Below are positions 57 to 11,580 of a stretch of 12,200 bases of DNA, in pieces (the first letter of the stretch is position 1; every line of letters starts with the position of its first letter). The DNA is taken from positions 1 through 12,200 of the forward strand of contig SCVQ01000037.1 of assembly GCA_004296865.1 (NCBI GenBank). Direction: 5' to 3'. A model generated the notes under the pieces. That model saw only the letters and a list, made by a program, of their open reading frames with translations. It searched no databases and was not told the origin of the DNA. Made by a program: the position numbers and the translations under genes. Origin of the DNA: Nitrospirota bacterium. GTDB taxonomy: Bacteria > Nitrospirota > Nitrospiria > Nitrospirales > Nitrospiraceae.

Positions 57-1109
57 ATGAGTAAGATTCGCACGCTGATCGTGGACGATTCGGCTCTGAT
101 GCGGCAGGTCTTGAAAGAGTTGCTGTCGCAGGACCCGGAGATCGAGGTGGTCGGGGTGGCGGCAGACCCCTACATTGCCCGGGAGAGGATCAAGACGCTC
201 AATCCGGATGTGCTGACGCTGGACGTCGAAATGCCCCGGATGGACGGCCTGACCTTTCTGGAGAAACTCATGGCCGGCCATCCGATGCCGGTGGTCATGG
301 TCAGCTCGCTGACCGAGGCGGGGTGCCAAACTACGCTCCGTGCGCTCGAACTCGGGGCGGTGGATTTCTTTACCAAGCCGAAGATCGATCTGCGGGATGG
401 GTTGGAAGCGCTCGCCCAGGAGCTGGCCGACAAGGTCAAAGCGGCGGCCCAGGTCCATGTGCGGAGCCGAGATCCGGCCGCCTCCTCGCGTGACGTCGCC
501 GGGACCCGCGCGACGCTCACGGCCATGATCAAGACCACGGATACGATCATCGCCATCGGGGCGTCCACGGGAGGGACCGAAGCCATCCGGGAGGTGCTGG
601 AAGTGCTGCCGCCGAACACGCCGCCGATCATCATCACGCAGCACATGCCCGAGAAGTTCACGAAAGCCTTTGCCGACCGCCTGAATGGGCTCTGCCAGAT
701 CACGGTGAAGGAGGCGGAAGACGGCGACAGCGTCCTGACCGGCCATGCGCTCATTGCGCCCGGCAATTTTCACATGACGCTGCAGCGGAGCGGGGCGCGC
801 TACTGTGTGCGGCTGAACCAGGCCCCGCCGGTCAACCGGCACCGGCCCTCGGTGGACGTCATGTTTCACTCGGTCGCGCAGTATGCGGGGGGCAACAGCA
901 TCGGCGTGATCATGACCGGCATGGGCAAGGACGGCGCGGCCGCCCTGTTCGAAATGAAGCAGGCCGGGGCCTATACGATCGCCCAGGATGAAAGTAGTTG
1001 CGTCGTCTTCGGCATGCCCAATGAAGCGATCAAGCTCGGCGGGGTGGACAAGATCCTGCCGTTGGCGCAGATCCCTTCGTCGCTCCTGGCCCGCGTGCGG
1101 ATGCAATGA
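57..1109 (+). CDS. cheB: CheB: chemotaxis response regulator, protein-glutamate methylesterase/deamidase
   Basis: CheB removes methyl groups from (and deamidates) glutamyl residues of methyl-accepting chemotaxis proteins in the cytoplasm, resetting receptor sensitivity when phosphorylated by CheA. The 350-residue length is normal for the family. The N-terminal receiver (about 1-120) has the acidic pair D10/D11, the phosphoacceptor D56 in [11 protein letters not shown], and K107-P108. After a linker, the CheB catalytic domain (about 160-348) shows the triad: S170 in GASTGG, H196 in ITQHMP and D292 in GMGKDGA. The ATG at 57 follows GAGGA (44-48), supplied by the upstream repeat. No cheA, cheR, cheW or receptor gene lies in the window; these may lie upstream or elsewhere. 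A 68-nt gap separates it from the STAS gene, so joint transcription with the partner-switching genes is possible but not shown. Confidence 0.96.
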
Positions 1110-1177
1110 CCGTCGGTGCGGCAGGGTGAACCATAGGTGCAGGGGCTGGAGGTGGTTCGTACAAGGAGACCCACGTT

Positions 1178-1519
1178 ATGCACATCACGGAACGTTCGAT
1201 TCGAGGGGGGACGGTGTTGATGCTCAGCGGTGAATTCAATTTCACCGGCCGGCGCACGTTCAACGACGCTGTCAAGAAGGCTTGGGCCGCCAATTGCCCG
1301 CACCTGCTCGTGAACCTGGAAGGCGTCGCGTTTCTCGACAGCGCCGCCTTGGGCCTGCTCGCCATTGCGAACCAGGCGTGCCAAGAGAAACAGTGCCGTA
1401 TGAGCCTCATCAAGCCACAGCCCTATGTGGCGGAGGTGTTGAAGCTGGCCAACATCCAGAAGATGATCCCCATCCACGCCAACGAAGAGGAGGCGTTGAA
1501 AATGGTGGTGAGGGCATAA
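1178..1519 (+). CDS. STAS-domain protein, anti-sigma-factor antagonist type (HsbA/SpoIIAA-like)
   Basis: This 113-residue cytoplasmic protein is a single STAS domain. Such proteins are partner-switch nodes: an RsbW/SpoIIAB-type kinase phosphorylates a conserved serine, a PP2C phosphatase removes the phosphate, and only the unphosphorylated form binds its target. The motif VNLEGVAFLDSAALGLL contains D54-S55; by alignment with the DSSGLG motif of SpoIIAA, S55 is the expected phosphorylation site. The ATG at 1178 has AAGGAG at 1163-1168, 9 nt upstream. Its TAA stop forms part of the next gene's Shine-Dalgarno (TAAGGAGG, 1517-1524), so the two are very likely translationally coupled. The matching phosphatase and kinase are encoded downstream in the same cluster, which supports this role. 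Its final target (sigma/anti-sigma factor, cyclase or motility component) cannot be read here. Confidence 0.9.
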   Translation: MHITERSIRGGTVLMLSGEFNFTGRRTFNDAVKKAWAANCPHLLVNLEGVAFLDSAALGLLAIANQACQEKQCRMSLIKPQPYVAEVLKLANIQKMIPIHANEEEALKMVVRA

Positions 1520-1524
1520 GGAGG
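1518..1524 (+). promoter_or_regulatory. Shine-Dalgarno AAGGAGG overlapping the STAS stop codon
   Basis: The seven bases AAGGAGG start within the TAA stop codon (1517-1519) of the STAS gene and lie 6 nt before the ATG at 1531. This fixes the start of the receiver-phosphatase gene and rules out the long upstream extension of that reading frame through the STAS gene. Confidence 0.85.
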
Positions 1525-1530
1525 CGTGTG

Positions 1531-2784
1531 ATGGCTATCATGAATCATCCGGTTCCGGAGGGGGCTCGCGCTCCAGTGGGCCTGCCGGCGGGCATCGAGA
1601 GCAGCTCCGCGGTCGCCATTCTCGTGGTGGACGACGAGCCGGTGTCGCGCGCGGCGCTCGCCCTCAAGCTGGAACGACGCGGCTATCGTGTCCTGCAGGC
1701 CGGCGACGGCCGGGAGGGGTTGACGATCGCCCGGTGCGAACATCCGGACGTGATCATCTCTGATTGGATGATGCCGGAAATGGACGGGATCGCGTTTTGT
1801 GACGCCGTCAAGGCGGACGGCGCTCTCCGTGTCATCTATTTCATCCTGCTGACGGTCCACGATCAGCCGGAGCAGATCGTCGAGGGATTCAACCACGGGG
1901 CCGATGACTTCATCGGCAAGACGGCGTCCACCCCGGAGGTCATCGCGAGGGTCAGGGCCGGCCTTCGCGCGCGGGCCATGATGCGCCAACTGGAACGCAC
2001 CCATCAGGACCTGGCCGATTCGCATGAACTCCTGGTGCAAAAGCAGGAGATGATGGAGATGGACCTGCGATCGGCCTCGCGGTTCGTCAGGTCCTTGCTG
2101 CCCAAAGAGGGGCAACTGGTGCCGGGGGTTCATCTGGCGTGGGAGTACCTGCCGTCGCTCGTGCTGGGGGGGGACCTGTTCGGCGCGGTGCCGTGGGGGG
2201 ACGATTGCCTGGGGTTGTACATTCTGGATGCCTCGGGACACGGGGCGAGCGCGGCTCTCCGCGCGGCATCCCTGGTGACGTTCTTGCGGGCCGATGCGTT
2301 ACCCCAGCAAGTCGGGCCCCGCGAGACGGGGAAGATCATGGCGGCCCTCAATCACTTGTTCCCGTTGAGCGAAGCCGGCGAGTATTTCACGGTCTGGATC
2401 GGCAGCCTGCACCTGCCGACTCGCGAATTGTGTTTCAGCACCGCCGGGCACTCCGGATCCGTCCTGGTGCGGAAGGACGGACGCATGGACCACCTCTTTC
2501 AACCGGCTTTGCCGGTCGGGTTTGGGTCCGGCACCAGCTATCCCGCGAAGCGCGTGACGCTCCAAGCCGGAGATCGCGTGATCCTGCCCAGCGACGGCCT
2601 CTATGAGGTCCCTTCGCCCAACGGCGAGCGGTGGGGGCTGACTCGTTTTATGCAAACGGTATTGGATAGTTGCGACCGTCCCCTCGTCCAGTCGATCAAA
2701 GAGGTGATCGTGCAGGCACGGTGCTGGCAGGAGCACCATCGTTTTGCGGACGACGCGGCCTTGGTGGGGCTGGAATTTGAATGA
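1531..2784 (+). CDS. Response regulator with PP2C/SpoIIE-family serine phosphatase output
   Basis: A 417-residue cytoplasmic protein, most likely the phosphatase that dephosphorylates the neighbouring STAS protein under control of a phosphorelay. The receiver (about 27-145) has D34/D35, phosphoacceptor D78 in ISDWMMPEMDG, T108 and K130. The residue after K130 is threonine instead of the usual proline. A likely coiled-coil linker (about 148-182, through LERTHQDLADSHELL) leads to a PP2C_SIG/RsbU-type domain (about 185-417). Metal-binding acidic motifs are visible: LGGDLF with D215, DASGHGASAAL with D233, LPSDGLYE with D355 and FADDAALV with D407/D408. The start at 1531 is chosen for its strong Shine-Dalgarno at 1518-1524; the open frame runs further upstream but overlaps the STAS gene. 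A 40-nt gap precedes the kinase gene. RsbU, HsbR and SypE are functional relatives; the exact substrate is inferred from gene order. Confidence 0.92.
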   Translation: MAIMNHPVPEGARAPVGLPAGIESSSAVAILVVDDEPVSRAALALKLERRGYRVLQAGDGREGLTIARCEHPDVIISDWMMPEMDGIAFCDAVKADGALRVIYFILLTVHDQPEQIVEGFNHGADDFIGKTASTPEVIARVRAGLRARAMMRQLERTHQDLADSHELLVQKQEMMEMDLRSASRFVRSLLPKEGQLVPGVHLAWEYLPSLVLGGDLFGAVPWGDDCLGLYILDASGHGASAALRAASLVTFLRADALPQQVGPRETGKIMAALNHLFPLSEAGEYFTVWIGSLHLPTRELCFSTAGHSGSVLVRKDGRMDHLFQPALPVGFGSGTSYPAKRVTLQAGDRVILPSDGLYEVPSPNGERWGLTRFMQTVLDSCDRPLVQSIKEVIVQARCWQEHHRFADDAALVGLEFE

Positions 2785-2814
2785 GTCGGCCTGCGCACCG
2801 CGGCGCGTGCTCAT

Positions 2815-2818
2815 GAGG
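2815..2818 (+). promoter_or_regulatory. GAGG ribosome binding site choosing the hybrid-kinase start
   Basis: GAGG lies 6 nt before the ATG at 2825. The in-frame ATG at 2813 overlaps this motif and has no Shine-Dalgarno of its own, and the reading frame upstream of it runs into the phosphatase gene. The start at 2825 is therefore preferred. Confidence 0.6.
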
Positions 2819-2824
2819 CACATC

Positions 2825-5800
2825 ATGAGTGGACAACACATCCGGCACGTTCCGCATTGGATGGCGCTGCTCATCGGCGTGATCGTCTTGGCGGCGGCGG
2901 TGATCGGGGGCGTCACCTTCCGGAACGTTGTGCAGCAGCGGGCCCAGCTCGTCGGGGCCTATCTAGCCAATGACGCGGAGGACGTCGCCGAGACCATCGA
3001 CGGCCTGTTGTTCGAACGCTACGGCGATACCCAAATGATGGCCGATGCGTTTCCCGCTCTGGTCTACAATTCCACGGCCCTGACGCAGTATCTCACGAAG
3101 ATGAAGGAGCGGTACCTGGTCTATGACTGGCTCGGTATGACGGATCGAGACGGTCAGGTCGTGGCGGCGACGGATTCCTCGATGGTGGGCGAGGACTGGA
3201 GTCGCCGATCATGGTTTCTGAACACCCGCGATCGGCGGGACGTGTATCTGGAACAAGTCGGCGACGCCGATGTCGAGCCCGATCCGGGCCTCATCTTTTC
3301 GACTGCCATCCGGGATGACGAGGGGCGATTCCTGGGCGTGGTGGTGAGTCGAGTGAAGCTCACGATAGTGCGGGAGATCATCGAGAAAACCATGAGGGTG
3401 AGTCAGGAGACAGAGGGGGCGGTCGGAATAAACGAATGGCAGGTGCTGAATAAGCAGGGGAGCGTGGTCATGGGTTCCCTTACCGCGGATCGAGGGTTGG
3501 TCAACTTGCTTGGGTTGGGGGTTCCGTCGGCCTCGAGGGGTCTTTCGGAACAGCGCGGGTACGTCGAAGAGATGCATCGGCGTCGGCAGGTGCCGGTCAT
3601 CACGGGCTATGCCACGACCCATGGAGAGGGGTCATTCATGGGCCCCGGATGGGTCGTATTGTTGCGCGTGGATCGAGACGCGGTCATCGGTTCTCTCCAC
3701 GTCGCGGCGCGGGAAGCCGGCTTGGGAGCTGCCGTTGTGATCGGGCCGCTGCTGGTTTTGCTCCTGTGGCAGGGTCGAAGGCTGCGGAAGGCGTGGGCCG
3801 CGGGCGAGGAGCAGAACCAGACCCTGCGGCTGTTGCTGGCGACGACGCGGGACCTCACGGTCGAATCGGACACGCAGGCCATCCTGACCCAGTTGACGCA
3901 GACGGCCCGCCAGATCACGGGGGCCAAGTATGCGGCCTTGGGCGTCTTCAACGAGACCGGCACGGCGCTCACGCAGTTCATCACGTCGGGGATGGACGAG
4001 GCGCTCAGGGAGAAGATCGGCGCGCTGCCGATGGGCCGGGGCCTGTTAGGCCATCTGGCGGATGAGCCGGGCGCCCTCCGGCTCAAGGACCTCGCCCAAC
4101 ATGCCGCGTCCTGCGGGTTTCCGGCGCACCATCCGGAGATGCATTCCTTTCTGGGCAGTTCGATCCGCGTGGGGGGGCGCCTCCTCGGCCGGCTCTATGT
4201 CACCGAGAAACAGGGGGGCAGCGAGTTCACGGAGATGGACGAGCAGACCATCACGGCCCTGGCGATGCAGGCGGGCGACCTGATCGAGCGGTGCTCCCTC
4301 CTCAACCAACTCCAGGCCGCCCATGCCCAATCCAGCGCGTTGCTGGAGTCGGTCGGCGAGGGCATCTGCGGCATCGATGCGCAGGGGCGCATCCTCTTCC
4401 TCAACCAGGCCGGCGCGGCGCTGGTGGGCTACGAACCCCACGAACTGATCGGGCAGTCCGCCCACGAGCGGCTCCATTATAGCCATGCCGACGGCACACC
4501 CTATCCCTTCGAACAGTGCCCGATCTATGAGGTCTTGCGAACCGGAGCGGGGTGCCGCATGGAAGGCGAAGTGTACTGGCGGAAGGACGGGACGTCGTTC
4601 CCGGTCGAGTATGCCGCGGCGCCCCTTCGGAGGGATGAAACGGTCGTGGGGGCGGTCATCTCCTTCAACGATATCACCGCACGTAAACAGACGGAGCAGG
4701 CCTTCCGCTCGCTGGTCGAAGGCACCGCCGGAACGGTCGGCGAATCGTTTTTCCGCTCGCTGGTCCAACACCTCGCCGCGGCGCTGAACGTCCGCTATGC
4801 GCTAGCGGCCGAATACACGAACGAGGCGCGCGATCACGCGCGGACCATCGCGATTTGGGACGGCACGGGCTTGCGGGACAATTTCGAATACTCCCTTGCC
4901 GGCGGGCCCTGCGAAAGGCTCCTGGGCACCACCCAGTGGTTCTGCCCCCGCGACCTGCGCCGGCAGTTTCCTTCCATGGAGATGCTCGCCACGCTGGAGA
5001 CGGAGAGTTACCTGGGGATCAGTCTCCGCGACGCCGCCGGCCGCGCGCTCGGCCTCCTCGTGGTGATGGACACGGTCCCCATGATCGAGAGCGAGTTGTC
5101 GCAGACCCTCATCAAAATCTTCGGGGCCCGGGCCGCGGTTGAATTGGAACGCAAGCGGGCGGAGGCGGCGCTGGCAAACAATAATCTAGAGTTGGCCGAG
5201 GCGCGCGACCAGGCCTTGGGGGCGGTGCGGATGAAGTCCCAGTTTCTGGCCACGGTCAGCCATGAAATCCGCACGCCGATGAACGGCGTGCTCGGGATGG
5301 CGGACCTCCTGCTCTCGACGGACTTGACGGCGGACCAGCGCGACTATGCCACGACCATCGTGCAATCGGGGAAGGTGCTCCTCACGATTCTCAACGACAT
5401 TTTGGATTTTTCAAAGATGGAAGCGGCCAAGCTGGAGGTGAAGCACGTCGAATTCAAGCCGCGCCCGATGCTCGACGAAATCCTGGCGCTGTTGGCGACA
5501 CAGGCGCACAGCAAGGGCCTGGAATTGACGAGCTGCGTCCAGGCCGACGTCCCGACGACCTTGCACGGCGACCCCCACCGGCTCAGCCAGATCCTCATCA
5601 ACCTCGTCGGCAATGCGATCAAGTTTACCGAGGCCGGGGAGGTTGCGATCCGTCTCGGCCCGGCCGGGACGGATTCGACGGACGTCCGTTTCGAGGTCCG
5701 CGATTCCGGGATCGGGATTGCGCCGGAGGCCCAGGCGCGCCTGTTCCAACCCTTCTCGCAGGTCGATGGCTCGAATACGAGAAAGTACGGCGGCACCGGG

Positions 5801-7279
5801 CTGGGGCTGGCCATCTGCCGGCAGTTGGTCCACTTGATGGGGGGCGAGATCGGGGTCGAGAGCCGGCCCGGCCAGGGCAGCACTTTCTGGTTCACGATTC
5901 GGCAATTGCGACAGGCCGAGCCGCCTGCCGCGCCGTCGGCGTCGCGCGCGGATTTGCGTGGATTGCGGGTGTGCCTCGTGGGAGTGCACGAGACCAACCG
6001 CGCCATCCTGATGTCGCATTTCCAAGACTGGGGCGTCCGGAGCGTGAGCCTGAAGGACGTTCCGCAGGCTCTTGAGGCGCTACGCGTTGCGGTCGGACGC
6101 GGGGAGCCGTTCGACGTGGCGATGGTCGGGATCCACGTGTCCGGCGCGGAGGGGCTGGTGTTCGCCCGCACGATCAAGGCCGACGCGGAACTGGCGTCTG
6201 TCCGTCTGGTCCTGCTGGCTTCGGCGGAGCAGCCGGTGGATGTCGATCAGGCGCGGCTGGTAGGGATCGAGACCATTCTGTGGAAGCCCATCCAGTCTCC
6301 CCAATTGTATGCCTGTCTGGCCGGAGTGAGTGCGGTGCCGACGCCGGTGCCGTCCTCCGTGCAGGCGATCCCCGTCGAGGCGAGCCCGGTGCGGGAGGTG
6401 CCACGAGACACCCATGCCGGCGACGCCCTGCTGCCCGCCCATCCCCGCATCCTGCTGGCGGAAGACAACCTGCTCAATCAAAAAGTGGCGACGCATATGT
6501 TGGCGAAGTTGGAGTGCCACGTGGACATGGTCGCCACCGGGGTCGAAGCCCTCGATGCCTTGTCCCGCGCGTCGTACGATCTGGTGTTGATGGATTGCCA
6601 GATGCCCGAGATGGACGGGTTCCAGGCGGCGGTCCTCATCCGCCAGCGTGAAGGGGGCGTGCGCCGCACGCCCATTGTGGCGATGACGGCCAACGTGCTC
6701 CTGGGCGACCGGGAACGGTGCTTGGTGGCGGGGATGGACGATTATCTTCCCAAGCCGGTCACGCTGGCGTCGTTGCGGGAGGTGCTCCAGCGGTGGGTGT
6801 CGGGAGATGCCCCGTCGCCATCGATCCCCCAGGCGGTCGGTTCCGGGGTGGTCAGCCCGGCACTTTCCCCGGGCGTACAGGCGGGGCCGCCACCGGCCGC
6901 CACCGAGGGCACACAAGAGGCAGGACCCGCGGTTTTTAACCGGGCCCAAGCGCTGGCTCGGACGGAAGGCGATGTGGAGTTGTTGAAAAGTCTGGCTGGT
7001 CTGTTCGTGGCCGCTGTGCCGCAGGAACTGGCCGGGATCCGCGAGGCCGTAGCGAAGCGAGACGCAGCCGTGCTCATGCAGAAGGCGCACAAGTTACAGG
7101 GCGCCGTGCTGCAATTTTGCGCGCCGGACGTTCTCGCCGCCGTTCGGTCGATGGAAGCGCTCGGCCGGGGCGGAGACCTGGCGGGGGTGGAAACGGCCTG
7201 CGCCGACCTGGAAAAGAACGTCATGGGCCTGGTCGAGGCATTAAAGGCGGTGATGGAGGAGACAACCGTATGTCGGTGA
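2825..7279 (+). CDS. Membrane hybrid histidine kinase: Cache-GAF-PAS-GAF-HisKA-HATPase-REC-REC-HPt
   Basis: A 1484-residue inner-membrane sensor kinase carrying a full phosphorelay in one chain. TM1 (about 12-33) and TM2 (about 297-317) enclose a periplasmic Cache-type sensor, recognisable by IFSTAIRDDEGRFLGVVV. Cytoplasmic domains follow: GAF (about 332-487), PAS (about 501-622, with GICGIDAQGRILFLN), a second GAF-like domain (about 626-780, with FEYSLAGGPCE and ESYLGISL), HisKA with H813 in VSHEIRTPMNG, and HATPase with N930 and the G2 box at 989-994. The first receiver (about 1041-1160) is degenerate: the phosphoacceptor position is G1102 and the N-terminal acidic pair is gone. The second receiver is intact (E1213/D1214, D1257 in LMDCQMPEMDG, K1310). 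A C-terminal HPt has H1422 in KAHKLQGAVLQF. Expected phosphate path: H813 to D1257 to H1422, then out to separate receivers. Those on the flanking phosphatase and anti-sigma-kinase-like proteins are the obvious candidates. Its stop overlaps the next gene by 10 nt. The ligand is unknown. Confidence 0.93.
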   Translation: MSGQHIRHVPHWMALLIGVIVLAAAVIGGVTFRNVVQQRAQLVGAYLANDAEDVAETIDGLLFERYGDTQMMADAFPALVYNSTALTQYLTKMKERYLVYDWLGMTDRDGQVVAATDSSMVGEDWSRRSWFLNTRDRRDVYLEQVGDADVEPDPGLIFSTAIRDDEGRFLGVVVSRVKLTIVREIIEKTMRVSQETEGAVGINEWQVLNKQGSVVMGSLTADRGLVNLLGLGVPSASRGLSEQRGYVEEMHRRRQVPVITGYATTHGEGSFMGPGWVVLLRVDRDAVIGSLHVAAREAGLGAAVVIGPLLVLLLWQGRRLRKAWAAGEEQNQTLRLLLATTRDLTVESDTQAILTQLTQTARQITGAKYAALGVFNETGTALTQFITSGMDEALREKIGALPMGRGLLGHLADEPGALRLKDLAQHAASCGFPAHHPEMHSFLGSSIRVGGRLLGRLYVTEKQGGSEFTEMDEQTITALAMQAGDLIERCSLLNQLQAAHAQSSALLESVGEGICGIDAQGRILFLNQAGAALVGYEPHELIGQSAHERLHYSHADGTPYPFEQCPIYEVLRTGAGCRMEGEVYWRKDGTSFPVEYAAAPLRRDETVVGAVISFNDITARKQTEQAFRSLVEGTAGTVGESFFRSLVQHLAAALNVRYALAAEYTNEARDHARTIAIWDGTGLRDNFEYSLAGGPCERLLGTTQWFCPRDLRRQFPSMEMLATLETESYLGISLRDAAGRALGLLVVMDTVPMIESELSQTLIKIFGARAAVELERKRAEAALANNNLELAEARDQALGAVRMKSQFLATVSHEIRTPMNGVLGMADLLLSTDLTADQRDYATTIVQSGKVLLTILNDILDFSKMEAAKLEVKHVEFKPRPMLDEILALLATQAHSKGLELTSCVQADVPTTLHGDPHRLSQILINLVGNAIKFTEAGEVAIRLGPAGTDSTDVRFEVRDSGIGIAPEAQARLFQPFSQVDGSNTRKYGGTGLGLAICRQLVHLMGGEIGVESRPGQGSTFWFTIRQLRQAEPPAAPSASRADLRGLRVCLVGVHETNRAILMSHFQDWGVRSVSLKDVPQALEALRVAVGRGEPFDVAMVGIHVSGAEGLVFARTIKADAELASVRLVLLASAEQPVDVDQARLVGIETILWKPIQSPQLYACLAGVSAVPTPVPSSVQAIPVEASPVREVPRDTHAGDALLPAHPRILLAEDNLLNQKVATHMLAKLECHVDMVATGVEALDALSRASYDLVLMDCQMPEMDGFQAAVLIRQREGGVRRTPIVAMTANVLLGDRERCLVAGMDDYLPKPVTLASLREVLQRWVSGDAPSPSIPQAVGSGVVSPALSPGVQAGPPPAATEGTQEAGPAVFNRAQALARTEGDVELLKSLAGLFVAAVPQELAGIREAVAKRDAAVLMQKAHKLQGAVLQFCAPDVLAAVRSMEALGRGGDLAGVETACADLEKNVMGLVEALKAVMEETTVCR

Positions 7280-8265
7280 CCCCACACAGCCTTTCCCTGC
7301 TGCTCGTGGACGACGATCCCTCCAGCTGCGACTTTTTGGCGGAATGCTTGACCGATATGGATTTGTCGGTGCGCGCGGCGGCCAGCGGCGAAGAGGGAAT
7401 TGCGGCCTGTGAGTCGGTTTCGCCGGACATCGTCTTGACCGACCTCCACATGCCGGGGATGGGCGGCCTCGCTTTCGCCAAGCAGGTGCGAGAGCGCTGG
7501 CCGGACTGTCCGGTGATCGTCATCACCGGACAAGGCGACGAGGCCTCCGCCATCGCGGCCTTGAAGGCGGGCGCTTCCGACTACCTCAAGAAGCCGGTCA
7601 CCGTCGACGACCTCCACGCCACCGTCCAGCGAGCCGTGGACGTGGCCCAATCGTGCCGAGCGGAACTCCTCATGAACTTGCCCGTCGATCGCATGGATTT
7701 TCAGGTCGTGGTGGGTAGCGCGTTCGCCCATATCGTGTCCCTCATCAATACCCTGGTGCGCGACACCGAGCCGCTTCTGGCCAGCCGGGCCCGTTTCGGA
7801 CTGCGCATCGCGCTCCAGGAAATGCTGTTGAACGCGATCGAGCACGGGAACCTCGAAATTTCCTATCAGGAAAAACTCGACGCGATCGGCCGGGGTCAGT
7901 ACGAGGAACTCCTGGATGCCCGGTGCCGTGAGGCTCGATTCAGAGACCGTCGCGTGACCGTGCAGGTGCTCATCGATCGAGGGCAGAGGCGCATTGCTTA
8001 TCGAATCCGCGATGAAGGCCGGGGCTTCGATTGGCGGACTCAGTTGGCGACCAGCGTGGAGTCTCGTTTGCTCACCGGGGCGGGGGGACGCGGCATTTTT
8101 CTGGCGCGGAGCTTGGTGCCGGACCAGGCGTATAACGAGCGCGGTAATGAAGTGACCCTGACCATTCCTCTTTCGGTAGACGGCGTGCCGGCTTCGAGGC
8201 CGGTCCCTGACCCTGCCTCCTGCGGACGTGCCGAGTCCGTGCCCGAGGCGGCAGCGGGTTTGTAA
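7270..8265 (+). CDS. Response regulator with anti-sigma-type HATPase (RsbW/SpoIIAB-like serine kinase)
   Basis: A 331-residue cytoplasmic protein, probably the kinase that phosphorylates the STAS protein of this cluster. The receiver (about 7-125) has acidic residues at 14-16, phosphoacceptor D58 in LTDLHMPGMGG, T86 and K108-P109. The C-terminal half (about 145-300) is a GHKL ATPase of the anti-sigma type. It shows an N box ALQEMLLNAIEHGN with E184 and N188, a DEGRGFD box at 248-254, and GRGIFLARSL at 273-282. About 55 residues separate the N box from the DEGRGFD box, including an extra helical-looking segment (ISYQEKLDAIGRGQYEELL). There is no HisKA histidine, which argues against a histidine kinase. 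The ATG at 7270 has GGAGGAG at 7255-7261 and overlaps the kinase stop by 10 nt, indicating translational coupling. The last 30 residues are proline/alanine-rich and appear unstructured. The kinase assignment rests on motif type and context. Confidence 0.88.
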   Translation: MSVTPHSLSLLLVDDDPSSCDFLAECLTDMDLSVRAAASGEEGIAACESVSPDIVLTDLHMPGMGGLAFAKQVRERWPDCPVIVITGQGDEASAIAALKAGASDYLKKPVTVDDLHATVQRAVDVAQSCRAELLMNLPVDRMDFQVVVGSAFAHIVSLINTLVRDTEPLLASRARFGLRIALQEMLLNAIEHGNLEISYQEKLDAIGRGQYEELLDARCREARFRDRRVTVQVLIDRGQRRIAYRIRDEGRGFDWRTQLATSVESRLLTGAGGRGIFLARSLVPDQAYNERGNEVTLTIPLSVDGVPASRPVPDPASCGRAESVPEAAAGL

Positions 8266-8389: not shown

Positions 8390-8998
8390 TTAGAGGTGCG
8401 ATCGAAAGGAGGACAACGGCGGGCCGATTCGAAGAGGCGGCCTGTCGGGCCCGTTGGGATGGGCGATCGGCAGAAACTCGTTGAACTTCGGGGCCAGGGT
8501 GCGGCTGTCGAAGAAGACGAAGCCGCGCTCTCCCTTGGCTTCATAGGTCAGATTGATTTCGGTGTCGGTCCCGCGCCAGTTGAACTGCTGGTTCAGTCCC
8601 CGCATCATCGATCCGGGAGAGCGATCGATCGGCCCGTAGTGCGATTGGAGATAGGCCAGCACCTGCTCGTGGGTTTTCTTCCCCTTGTACCGGACGCCCA
8701 CCCGGGCGAATTCTCCGTCATAGGCGTAAAAGGTCATGGACTCGACCCTGGCTTCGCCGAGCGGCAGCGGGCCTTGCGTGAGGGCGTATTCCTGGATGTG
8801 TTCTTCGGCGTTGATGAGGGTGAGGTCCTGGACCTTGGCCAGGGACGAGCCCCACTGAATGCCGTGAAAGCCCTTCGGATCGTTCAGCAAGGTGCCGGCG
8901 GTGGCGGGCATTGGGAGGACGCCGAGCACCGACCAGCCCAGCAGCATCCACGTGCGCCAAACGCTAGCGACGGCAACCAATCGACGGTGTGGGCTCAT
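8390..8998 (-). CDS. Hypothetical exported protein (GFxGIxWG-type family)
   Basis: A 202-residue protein of unknown function. It begins with a basic stretch (HRR at 4-6), a hydrophobic core (about 17-29) and a good signal-peptidase I site at ATA|G (34/35), so it is probably periplasmic. The mature part opens with GFHGIQWGSSLAKVQDL (43-59) and continues with RVESMTFYAYDGEFARVGVRYKG. From memory this resembles a family of uncharacterised secreted proteins in Nitrospirota and Deltaproteobacteria that start GFRGIxWGT and share the FYxGxFxxVxIxxxG strand. No catalytic motif is visible. The ATG at 8998 has only a weak purine-rich leader. A long open frame on the opposite strand covers the same DNA but looks like a shadow. 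The gene is convergent with the signalling block (124-bp gap without a clear terminator) and divergent from the decarboxylase operon. Confidence 0.8.
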   Translation of the reverse strand: MSPHRRLVAVASVWRTWMLLGWSVLGVLPMPATAGTLLNDPKGFHGIQWGSSLAKVQDLTLINAEEHIQEYALTQGPLPLGEARVESMTFYAYDGEFARVGVRYKGKKTHEQVLAYLQSHYGPIDRSPGSMMRGLNQQFNWRGTDTEINLTYEAKGERGFVFFDSRTLAPKFNEFLPIAHPNGPDRPPLRIGPPLSSFRSHL

Positions 8999-9207: not shown

Positions 9208-9705
9208 ATGATCGAGAGCGAGGCCTTTGTGCAAGCGCTGGAGGACATCGGATTCGACTTCTTCACCGGCGTCCCGGATGTGCTGCTGGCGGGGGTCATC
9301 GAGACGCTGCTGACGCGCCGGCTCTATACCCCGGCCGTTCGAGAGGACGAGGCGGTGGCGATGGCGGCCGGCGCCTACCTGGGCGGCAGGGTCCCGGCGG
9401 TGCTCATGTCGAATGCGGGGCTGGGGACGTCCCTGAATACGCTGCTCTCGTTGAACCTGCTCTATCGGCACCCTTGTCTGTTGATCGTGGCATGGCGGGG
9501 CTTCGAGGGCCATGATGCGCCGGAACATCGCAGCATGGGCCAGGTCATGACGCCCCTGCTGGACACGGTGCGCATTCCCCATCGAACCCTTTCGGATGCC
9601 ACGGCCCTGGACGATTTCAACTGGGTGGCGCAGACGTTCATGAAGACACGCATCCCGGTCGCGCTGCTCCTGAAGCCCGGTGTGGTCCGGGGGATTCAGC
9701 CGTGA
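9208..9705 (+). CDS. Phosphonopyruvate/sulfopyruvate decarboxylase, alpha subunit (TPP Pyr domain)
   Basis: This 165-residue protein is the N-terminal (pyrimidine-binding) half of a thiamine-diphosphate decarboxylase that converts phosphonopyruvate to phosphonoacetaldehyde, or sulfopyruvate to sulfoacetaldehyde. FFTGVPDVLL (18-27) matches the GVPDS motif of the family. E46 in VREDEAVAMAAGAYLGG is the expected glutamate that activates the cofactor aminopyrimidine. SNAGLGTSLNTLLSL (68-82) and AWRGFEGHDAPEH (95-107) are also family-typical. Bacterial phosphonopyruvate decarboxylases are usually one chain of about 370-400 residues, whereas ComD/ComE of methanogens are split as here. The REDEAVxxAAGAYLxG pattern is rather ComD-like, so the substrate is undecided. 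The ATG at 9208 follows AGGGGAG at 9198-9204; the longer frame from 9106 overlaps the promoter. The partner subunit follows after a repeat-filled gap. Confidence 0.87.
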   Translation: MIESEAFVQALEDIGFDFFTGVPDVLLAGVIETLLTRRLYTPAVREDEAVAMAAGAYLGGRVPAVLMSNAGLGTSLNTLLSLNLLYRHPCLLIVAWRGFEGHDAPEHRSMGQVMTPLLDTVRIPHRTLSDATALDDFNWVAQTFMKTRIPVALLLKPGVVRGIQP

Positions 9706-9799: not shown

Positions 9800-10381
9800 A
9801 TGAGACCCGAAGAAGGCACGATGCAGAGCCGTGCGCGGGCCATTCAGGCGTTGCTGGAGCTGATTCCCGGCGACGTCCCGGTCATCATCTGCAACGGCTT
9901 CCCCTCGCGTGAGGCGTTCAAGTTGGTGGACCGCCCGACCCATTTCTATATGATGGGGTCCATGGGGATGGCGGCGGCGATCGGGCTGGGCGTGGCTTTG
10001 GCCAAGCCCGCCAAGAAGGTGGTCGTGTTGGACGGCGACGGCAATGTCTTGATGGGGCTGGGGACGCTGGGCACGGTCGGGGCGCTCAAGCCCAAGAATT
10101 TCATCCACGTGGTGCTGGACAACGAAGTCTATGGGAGCAGCGGCAATCAGCCGAGCTACGCGCGGGTGGTGCGGCTGGACCAGGTGGCCAAAGCGGCCGG
10201 GTATGCGCACGTCGAGCGGGTGCGGGAGCGGGAAGACCTCGTCTATGAGTTCAAGGATCTGCTGGGCAAGGACGGTCCCGGCTTCCTGCTCGTGAAAGTC
10301 TCGGAGCAGGCGGAGGACGTCGGGTGGGTGTCGCTCGAGCCGTCCCAGATCACCCAGCGATTTCGAAAGGCCATTGAATAA
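9800..10381 (+). CDS. Phosphonopyruvate/sulfopyruvate decarboxylase, beta subunit (TPP PP domain)
   Basis: A 193-residue protein, the diphosphate-binding half of the thiamine-diphosphate decarboxylase; it should form the active site together with the alpha subunit encoded upstream. The TPP/Mg motif begins with GDGN (79-82) and ends with DNE (107-109), about the spacing of the classic GDG-x(24-27)-N motif. NGFPSREAF (32-40) and FYMMGSMGMAAAIGLGVAL (49-67) match the ComE/Ppd C-terminal domain, where SRE and GSMG are conserved. The methanogen ComE subunit is similar in length (about 190). The start is chosen for AGGAG at 9790-9794. A 94-nt gap of 7-nt repeats separates it from the alpha gene, which is unusual for two subunits of one enzyme. 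The aminotransferase gene begins about 107 nt downstream. Phosphonopyruvate and sulfopyruvate cannot be distinguished by eye. Confidence 0.87.
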   Translation: MRPEEGTMQSRARAIQALLELIPGDVPVIICNGFPSREAFKLVDRPTHFYMMGSMGMAAAIGLGVALAKPAKKVVVLDGDGNVLMGLGTLGTVGALKPKNFIHVVLDNEVYGSSGNQPSYARVVRLDQVAKAAGYAHVERVREREDLVYEFKDLLGKDGPGFLLVKVSEQAEDVGWVSLEPSQITQRFRKAIE

Positions 10382-10475: not shown

Positions 10476-10481
10476 AAGGAG
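10476..10481 (+). promoter_or_regulatory. AAGGAG ribosome binding site for the aminotransferase
   Basis: AAGGAG lies 7 nt before the ATG at 10489 and only 4 nt before the in-frame GTG at 10486. Spacing favours the ATG; the two starts differ by a single residue. Confidence 0.7.
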
Positions 10482-10488
10482 CTACGTG

Positions 10489-11580
10489 ATGATCTTCTTG
10501 ACTCCAGAGGCCGCGCATATTTCAACGCGTGTGCGCGCGGCGCTGCAACGGCCGGCGCTCAGTCATGAGGAGCCGGAGTTTGCGGAACTTCTGCACGGCA
10601 TCAGGCAGAAGCTGTTGCGGGCGTTTGTGCCGGGGGCCGAGTCGGACTATACGGCGGTGATCATGACCGGGTCCGGGAGCATGGCCGTCGAAGCCGCCCT
10701 CCTCTCCTCCCTGCCGCATGGGAAACGGGCTCTGGTCATCAACAACGGGGTCTATGGAGAGCTGATGGCCTCCATCCTCGGCGTGCCCCGCTTGGGCGTG
10801 GCGGAGTTCAAGCTGGATTGGGGCGCCAGGCCCGATCCGGAAAAGCTGAGGTTGGCGCTCCGGCAGCACCCTGAAGTCTATGCGGTGGCGATGGTGCACC
10901 ATGAGACGACGACCGGCCTCATCAATCCGGTCAAGGAGATCGCGGAGGTGGTGGACAGTCAGAACCGGGTGTTCATTGTGGATGCGGTGAGCGGCTTGGG
11001 CGGCGAAGCGCTGGACATTGCCGGGCCGCATCTGTACATGGTCGCCGGCACCGCCCAGGGAGGCATTCAGGGCGTGCCCGGCGTCTCCTTCGTGCTGGTG
11101 CGCAAGGGCTTCATGGAGCGGATGAAGGGCTATCCGAAACGGTCCTGGTATCTGTACCTGCCGCATTACTATGAGAATGAAGAACGAGGACGGATTCCCT
11201 TCACGCCGGCGGTGCAGGCCTATGTGGCCTTCGACGAGGCGCTCAGCGAGCTGTTGGAAGAAGGGCTCGCCAACCGCATCTTGCGCTACAAGAAGGCGGC
11301 TGCCGCGATCCGCCACAAGATGAGCGCGTGGGGGCTGACGCCGGTCCTGCCGTTGGAATGTCACTCCAACGGTCTCACGGCCTATCATCTTCCTTCCGGG
11401 CTGAGCTATGAGACGCTCCACGCTCGCCTGAAGGAGCAGGGCTATGTCATCGCGTCCGGCCAGGGGCCGCTCGCATCCAAAATCTTTCGAGTCGCCAACA
11501 TGGGGGCGTTGAGCGAAGCGGATATCGAGGGCTTTCTCTCCGCCTTCCAGCGCGTGCTGGAGACGGCTGCCGTCCGCTGA
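10489..11580 (+). CDS. PhnW-like (2-aminoethylphosphonate:pyruvate) class V aminotransferase homologue lacking the PLP lysine
   Basis: A 363-residue fold-type I, class V aminotransferase-like protein, near full family length and closest by eye to PhnW. PhnW interconverts phosphonoacetaldehyde and 2-aminoethylphosphonate with alanine/pyruvate. Preserved motifs: LTPEAAHIS near the N-terminus, the phosphate-binding GSGSMAVEA (61-69), HHETTTG (137-143), the pyridine-binding aspartate D165 in FIVDAVSGLGG, IQGVPGVSFV (193-202) and the carboxylate-binding arginine R334 in FRVANMG. The position of the Schiff-base lysine (NKCIQGVPG in PhnW, SQKALNAPPG in alanine-glyoxylate enzymes) is occupied by G191 in AQGGIQGVPG. 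No lysine occurs between D165 and K206. The codon there is GGA, two changes from AAG or AAA, so a simple read error is unlikely. It follows the decarboxylase genes, so an aminoacetaldehyde-forming role (2-aminoethylphosphonate or taurine) is expected from context, but normal transaminase chemistry is doubtful. Confidence 0.85.
   Translation: MIFLTPEAAHISTRVRAALQRPALSHEEPEFAELLHGIRQKLLRAFVPGAESDYTAVIMTGSGSMAVEAALLSSLPHGKRALVINNGVYGELMASILGVPRLGVAEFKLDWGARPDPEKLRLALRQHPEVYAVAMVHHETTTGLINPVKEIAEVVDSQNRVFIVDAVSGLGGEALDIAGPHLYMVAGTAQGGIQGVPGVSFVLVRKGFMERMKGYPKRSWYLYLPHYYENEERGRIPFTPAVQAYVAFDEALSELLEEGLANRILRYKKAAAAIRHKMSAWGLTPVLPLECHSNGLTAYHLPSGLSYETLHARLKEQGYVIASGQGPLASKIFRVANMGALSEADIEGFLSAFQRVLETAAVR

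Follow-up and report, generated by a model that had tools for sequence, protein, structure and literature searches.

What is a transaminase kept for once its catalytic lysine has gone? The question is raised by a gene, hereafter F5, in a stretch of 12,200 nucleotides from a Nitrospirota contig (the window, Table 1), where a PhnW-family class V aminotransferase fold is encoded directly behind the two halves, alpha and beta, of a TPP decarboxylase. Residues of F5 are numbered from the ATG at 10489; the GTG at 10486 is an alternative start, and the 364-aa reading was used in some searches. The original prediction, that glycine replaces the PLP lysine, is correct: GGA encodes residue 191, which phmmer alignments placed opposite the lysine of Salmonella PhnW (1m32, SSANKCIQGVPG) and of Vibrio PhnW (9kk8), and opposite the methionine of 9kka, a K193M mutant according to its PDB title. 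As first noted, the query sequence is free of lysine between D165 and K206. The list of PhnW motifs drawn up at the same time also holds, the P-loop reading GSGS, although it is GSGT in lysine-bearing relatives.

Table 1. Features of the window and the basis of their naming.
Feature	Position	Strand	Details or basis
CheB-like	57-1109		named by eye, ORF list
STAS-like	1178-1519		named by eye, ORF list
Response regulator/phosphatase	1282-2784		named by eye, ORF list
Large hybrid histidine kinase	2744-7279		named by eye, ORF list
Response regulator with HATPase-like domain	7117-8265		named by eye, ORF list
202-aa protein, signal-like N-terminus, motif NDPKGFxGIxWG	8390-8998	-	no Pfam/NCBIfam match
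Alpha, N-terminal TPP domain, phosphonopyruvate/sulfopyruvate decarboxylase type	9208..9705	+	REDEAVA Glu kept, QNSG changed to SNAG
Beta, C-terminal TPP domain	9800..10381	+	GDG and DNE kept; Ile52 to Met, Thr114 to Ser, Arg176 to Trp
Shine-Dalgarno-like AAGGAG ahead of the lysine-less F5 gene	10476..10481	+	sequence read
F5, PhnW-family class V aminotransferase fold without PLP lysine, 363 aa	10489..11580	+	
Codon GGA, Gly191, position of the PLP lysine in PhnW (K193 in Vibrio PhnW)	11059..11061	+	sequence, phmmer alignment, locus reads

F5 resembles the PhnW/AEP transaminases over its full length, in sequence and in fold. It scored below the PhnW equivalog cut-offs (297.8 versus 360.8 for TIGR03301, 229.1 versus 296 for NF010006, 220.8 versus 400.8 for TIGR02326); for TIGR03301 the same was true of two lysine-bearing relatives (347.9 and 349.5) and of another lysine-less protein, L038 (342.4). 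With Gly191, F5 is without the catalytic PLP lysine of a functional PhnW.

Two orthologues from the same genus, G001 (94% identical) and G002 (84%), likewise have glycine at 191. A wider count was made in 175 genomes of the Nitrospiraceae, taken as the family of the window genome. A single-copy ortholog of F5 was found in 165 of them (E<=1e-60), and a DNA pattern for the lysine motif was present in 156; the remaining 19 were ten genomes without F5 at E<=1e-60 and nine lysine-less ones. The nine span four genera: G000-G002 (Gly), G174 (Glu), G169-G172 (Asp) and G016 (Val). Direct reading of residue 191 covered two sets of loci: one of 30, with lysine in 21 and another residue in nine, and one of 76, with lysine in 66 and another residue in ten. 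Some of the 76 duplicate one another (L112 and L039, for example, stand for one record), and elsewhere residue 191 was taken from the DNA pattern, among the sites listed for it. It had been pointed out at the outset that lysine in all close orthologues would indicate a local mutation or error. This is not so within the genus, where 3/3 genomes have Gly, but it is the case for most of the family (156 of the 165 genomes with an ortholog). Among the best 120 of 1383 homologues, 94 had lysine and 26 did not (D 8, E 6, G 4, T 3, M 2, and L, A and V 1 each). Outside the family, 395 genomes drawn from the phylum yielded 32 orthologues, 31 with lysine and one, in G384, with alanine. That count leaves out L142, a family member, and L183, the second pattern match of G110, dropped because it gave no F5-like alignment at the motif.

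The lysine-less proteins belong together. In a tree of the 120 proteins, computed with the motif columns left out, all 26 lay on one side of a branch (SH-aLRT 97), and in a 42-row F5 tree rooted on G296 the nine lysine-less rows formed a clade (100/97), nested beside the lysine-bearing G006 and G011 (97/90). The operon described below is complete in G011, whereas in G006 the contig breaks off within PntD. The same clade was recovered from alpha and beta (99/97) and from the neighbouring MFP and RND genes (100/99, with five lysine-less among 11 rows), while support in the CstA tree was weak (66/73). Since F5, alpha plus beta and MFP plus RND all give this clade, the loss of the lysine appears to have been inherited vertically, and its age is such that four genera share it. 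G384, from another family, adjoins the lysine-bearing G447 in the 42-row tree, and its K191A is a separate, second loss. The window assembly is in 613 contigs, and a sequencing or assembly error, or contamination in a metagenome-assembled genome, could be suspected on that account, but the lysine is missing from nine genomes of four genera and from 26 of the best 120 proteins, in one clade. The independent lysine-less genomes rule out an error or a lone mutation at 191, and we regard this explanation as refuted for practical purposes.

It had also been suggested that another residue might stand in for the lysine, as in ColD, a natural lysine-less PLP enzyme with histidine. F5 is like ColD in being a natural lysine-less PLP fold and unlike it in the residue: the idea fails, because none of the 26 lysine-less proteins has His at 191. 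Residue 191 is moreover not fixed in the clade, so that no new catalytic side chain was selected there. Twelve lysines are shared by 80% or more of the lysine-less proteins (41, 79, 108, 119, 149, 206, 213, 217, 277, 284, 315 and 331); as for one of them taking over, K277 alone is peculiar to the clade, and the model places it in the long helix 260-280, outside the pocket motifs. A close lysine-bearing paralog in the window genome was looked for as well, and the three other class V matches are just 27-32% identical to F5. AlphaFold2 models largely agreed in the succession of helices and strands with and without the lysine (for the lysine-bearing alignment A3, pLDDT was 78.5 and pTM 0.84). The N-terminus (residues 1-7) was of low confidence in both models, and residues 214-222 solely in the lysine-less one.

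The lysine-bearing relatives suggest what the gene once did. Downstream of alpha, beta and F5, the 14 lysine-bearing loci read in the family encode a PntC-like nucleotidyltransferase of 240 aa (14/14), a PntD-like protein of 490 aa with a CDP-alcohol phosphatidyltransferase domain (14/14, three in part only) and an HpnL/LPG-synthase-type membrane protein, the flippase (12/14, the other two stretches ending before it). Upstream, 10/14 have a divergent fusion of PEP mutase and NTP transferase (PepM). In Nitrospira moscoviensis (L074), PepM, alpha, beta, F5, PntC, PntD and the flippase are all inside the 21 kb read. Outside the family, PntC was present in 15, PntD in 16 and the flippase in 14 of the 17 loci read. 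The operon was seen in the Nitrospirales loci L041-L053, L074 and L136-L153. It can be read as an apparent phosphonolipid pathway, leading from PEP through phosphonopyruvate, phosphonoacetaldehyde, 2-aminoethylphosphonate (AEP) and CMP-AEP to the lipid and its export. The names PntC and PntD are given by analogy with the AEP cytidylyltransferase pathway described in the part of PMC6697681 available to us.

The pathway was lost together with the lysine. PntD was detected in 156/156 lysine-bearing, 0/9 lysine-less and 4/10 F5-free genomes (160/175 in total); Fisher's test on PntD versus lysine gave p=5e-15, a value that serves as a scale only, because the genomes are related by descent. PepM matches at E<=1e-25 were found in 149/156 lysine-bearing genomes, a few of them weak (G038 and G080, for example), and in 1/9 lysine-less genomes. 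The fusion-type PepM of lysine-bearing genomes scored 278-290 bits, under the curated cut-off of 319.55, which among 16 genomes tested was exceeded solely by G124 and G019. The sole lysine-less match, in G016, is a frame of about 300 aa that is probably a methylisocitrate lyase, because its 138 bits are at the level of second matches in other genomes. No true PepM was thus found in any of the nine lysine-less genomes. Nor was a PntC ortholog found in these nine, the best E-values being 1.4e-8 to 2.7e-5, against 1e-88 to 1e-164 in six lysine-bearing genomes tested, the query's own included. A tblastn search at E 0.05 detected no remnants of PepM, PntC, PntD or the flippase in the stretches of DNA available for the nine lysine-less loci. 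Beta is present in all nine genomes, and the order alpha-beta-F5-CstA in all nine loci. The trio alpha-beta-F5 is accordingly what remains of the operon in 9/9 lysine-less loci, and gene context supports the originally proposed link between F5 and the upstream decarboxylase.

The second case of lysine loss resembles the first in this respect. G384 has neither a true PepM (a match of 124 bits only) nor PntC (2.2e-6), and its PntD frame, of 281 aa, is without the CDP-OH_P_transf domain present in G447. In the locus itself (L149, 1176-5434), K191A was seen with PntC missing, PntD reduced to its N-terminal part and a 333-aa flippase frame kept; this independent case, as far as its genes can be read, also has a collapsed pathway. 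Conversely, among the 17 loci read outside the family, one lysine-bearing F5 gene stands without PntC (L145, G281, 7993-8041) and another without PntD and the flippase (L143, G245, after 8005) in the stretch read, and 7/156 lysine-bearing genomes gave no PepM match, so that pathway damage is not always coupled to the loss of the lysine.

The DNA ahead of the trio differs among the lysine-less loci. MFP/RND genes lie there in 5/9 loci, and three contigs are too short to tell. The 9.2 kb upstream in the window are without MFP/RND, and signalling genes, named by eye from the ORF list, occupy the region (57-8265) at the site of the RND efflux pair in five other lysine-less loci. Between them and alpha lies the 202-aa NDPKGFxGIxWG protein; by eye, one or two look-alikes occur upstream of alpha in L037, L038 and L040, and three of these look-alikes gave no Pfam match either.

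Alpha and beta were compared with curated models and structures. Alpha matched Pfam PF02776 and PDB 9iz3_A (E=7e-29), and beta Pfam PF02775 and PDB 9iz3_B (E=4e-32). Against TIGR03297, which models a fused protein of 360 positions, alpha scored 114.7 bits and beta 172.8 with a cut-off of 312.5, lysine-bearing relatives falling below it too; scores with the sulfopyruvate models were likewise under cut-off (for beta, 185.8 versus 221.5 with TIGR03846). The TPP motifs, alpha E45 and beta GDG and DNE, are kept in 9/9 lysine-less loci; we take the Glu of REDEAVA to be the TPP glutamate and GDG-(x)-N to be the TPP signature.

Other positions of the decarboxylase, near-invariant in 31-32 lysine-bearing rows, have changed in the lysine-less loci: Q67 (8/9), S69 (9/9, S69A), I84 (9/9) and S94 (7/9) in alpha, and I52, T114 (T114S/G) and R176 (R176W/P), 9/9 each, in beta. 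Alpha 67-72 is the QNSGLG motif, common to RhiE of 9iz3. Beta 113 aligned to residue 460 of benzoylformate decarboxylase, whose residues 460-461 presumably shape the substrate pocket. These changes at near-invariant positions mean that alpha/beta of the lysine-less clade probably decarboxylates another 2-oxoacid; PEP mutase, as a source of phosphonopyruvate, had no match in 8/9 lysine-less genomes. In G384 the same positions are unchanged. Retargeting of the decarboxylase is therefore not general, and the G384 loss looks younger or different. Neither this change nor the joint loss of lysine and pathway is visible from the window alone, and the first reading of F5, which offered a non-canonical enzyme and a non-catalytic decarboxylase partner as alternatives, is supported in part.

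Selection on F5 was estimated as dN/dS (Nei-Gojobori, own script). Values were 0.090-0.219 (mean 0.16) in 15 lysine-less pairs and 0.043-0.155 (mean 0.09) in 15 of 16 lysine-bearing pairs, one pair being saturated; for CstA they were 0.084-0.190 in ten lysine-less pairs. No internal stop was found in the nine lysine-less F5 reading frames. The marks of a pseudogene, frame damage or a neutral dN/dS, are thus absent from F5, and the earlier argument against decay is borne out by one clade across four genera, with dN/dS of 0.09-0.22 and intact frames. A relic in slow decay, in which the trio is held by constraint lingering after the loss of the phosphonolipid pathway, would agree with a dN/dS about 1.8 times that of the lysine relatives and with the relaxation of 31 of 142 near-invariant columns described below. 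We nevertheless consider it improbable, as dN/dS stays far below 1 over four genera and close to that of the neighbour CstA, all nine F5 frames are free of stops, and the TPP motifs of alpha and beta are kept.

Conservation within F5 was compared column by column. The 94 lysine proteins have 142 near-invariant columns, and the 26 lysine-less ones are relaxed at 31 of these, among them, in the NPGPVN motif, 5-7 and 9-10, and outside it D23, C25, H26, R27, T64, R92, T141, S168, 190-192, F196, Y322, A323 and Q325. The motif regions of the original prediction held 11 of the 31 relaxed versus 18 of the 111 kept columns (p=0.025), a modest support for a concentration of the relaxation there. D165, V167, S62, G63, H138 and Q194 are kept in 26/26 and R334 and T239 in 25/26 lysine-less proteins. 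A323 became Pro in 24/26, which, on the alignment, is a new constraint. All these positions are taken here to have the roles that they have in class V enzymes. The pattern would fit a protein kept for its fold, perhaps for its pocket, and not for lysine chemistry.

The kept residues can be read in another way, namely that F5 is still an enzyme, with PLP or PMP bound non-covalently and another acid/base (Asp/Glu191, His/Gln190 or His137/138) promoting a different reaction on a PLP adduct. Retention of the cofactor contacts D165, R334, S62, G63, H138 and Q194 and the new proline at 323 speak for this, as do the title of 9kka, a K193M PhnW holding PLP and AEP, and the non-covalent PLP in crystals of PntC-AEPT and Salmonella PhnW reported in the part of PMC6697681 at hand. 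Position 191, however, has eight identities and position 190 four (H, Q, E and D), so that neither offers a conserved substitute acid/base; constraint is relaxed at Thr64, Thr141 and Ser168 and in the N-terminal NPGPVN motif, and the pathway that supplied the substrate is gone. We therefore rate a surviving enzyme as unlikely. Still less probable to us is that F5 acts on its own, with no decarboxylase partner, as a sensor or carrier of a PLP vitamer, an amine or a phosphonate-like ligand. The kept pocket residues would suit it, and a lysine-less PhnW can be crystallised with PLP and an amine, to go by the title of 9kka, but F5 lies directly behind alpha and beta in 9/9 lysine-less loci, from which PntC, PntD, the flippase and PepM have gone.

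The explanation that we favour, and to which we give about even chances, is that the trio has been repurposed and that F5 is a transaminase-dead, non-catalytic partner of a retargeted 2-oxoacid decarboxylase, a partnership to which gene order and retention point. F5 would descend from a working AEP transaminase of the Nitrospirales phosphonolipid pathway, an ancestral function suggested by the operon. An ancestor within the Nitrospiraceae lost PEP mutase, the nucleotidyltransferase, the phosphatidyltransferase and the flippase but retained alpha, beta and F5. F5 itself lost the PLP lysine, so that neither an internal aldimine nor normal ping-pong transamination is expected of it, and is nevertheless held by purifying selection. 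Alpha and beta would form an active TPP decarboxylase working on a new 2-oxoacid, with F5 as a scaffold, or as a gate that holds a ligand and perhaps still binds PLP, or an adduct of PLP with an amine, non-covalently. Of this account, the losses of lysine and pathway, the retention of the trio, the selection on F5 and the joint change of alpha and beta are observed, while the complex, its new substrate and its ligand are inferred.

Several observations stand against this repurposing of the trio. Residue 191 is variable and several active-site positions are relaxed, and very slow decay would look alike; dN/dS of F5 is above that of its lysine relatives (mean 0.16 versus 0.09). Alpha and beta are unchanged in G384, pathway damage did not always come with lysine loss, and CstA gave its weak tree support (66/73). 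The retention of D165 and R334 would be superfluous in a pure scaffold. A more specific proposal, which we hold only tentatively, is that alpha, beta and F5 make up a three-protein TPP decarboxylase for a non-phosphonate 2-oxoacid, in which the dead transaminase might be an obligate subunit that holds PLP or the product non-covalently and gates or channels the aldehyde.

Comparison with known systems brings out what is particular to F5. The PhnW/AEP transaminases (Salmonella 1m32, Vibrio 9kk8, TIGR03301/TIGR02326) have the PLP lysine, whereas F5 has Gly and its clade also D, E, V, T, M, L and A; F5 differs from them further in its relaxed active-site positions and in a genome where no true PEP mutase or nucleotidyltransferase ortholog was found. 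The lysine-bearing Nitrospirales orthologues (N. moscoviensis L074, for example) correspond to F5 one to one, are about 47-77% identical to it in the loci read and occupy the same place behind alpha and beta; unlike F5, they have the lysine and most of the inferred phosphonolipid operon. In RhiEF phosphonopyruvate decarboxylase (9iz3) and ComDE sulfopyruvate decarboxylase (PMC12141560), alpha and beta are likewise separate TPP subunits and the motifs are the same; the lysine-less clade differs at QNSG and at further positions, and a source of phosphonopyruvate was not found in it. A parallel in kind is LCB1 (SPTLC1) of serine palmitoyltransferase, a subunit of PLP fold that has no PLP lysine and is retained for the sake of its partner enzyme (PMC3794620). 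The partner of LCB1 is a homologous PLP subunit, whereas that proposed for F5, on gene order and retention, would be an unrelated TPP decarboxylase. In the literature searched, which covered few subscription journals, neither a lysine-less PhnW nor a direct precedent for such a PLP pseudoenzyme was found, nor was a publication on 9kka.

F5 is a natural, conserved ortholog of a fold-type I transaminase from which the catalytic lysine has gone in a whole clade. That the protein is kept intact beside the decarboxylase despite the loss of the lysine and much of the pathway points to a new role other than transamination, and the annotation "AEP transaminase" carried by some lysine-less proteins (P0011 and P0049, for example) is misleading here. 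The ancestor's probable function and the co-lost genes can be read from close relatives, so that the origin of a PLP-fold pseudoenzyme becomes testable step by step. The same relatives show that Nitrospirales, including nitrifiers such as Nitrospira moscoviensis, have an apparent phosphonolipid operon not met in the literature searched: those sources, with few subscription journals among them, held no report of phosphonolipids in Nitrospira, and the parts of PMC12874732 available to us mention Nitrospira and AEP without connecting them. If the trio does make up the three-protein enzyme proposed above, loss of the lysine, with two independent cases, would mark a repeatable route for recycling a collapsed phosphonate pathway.
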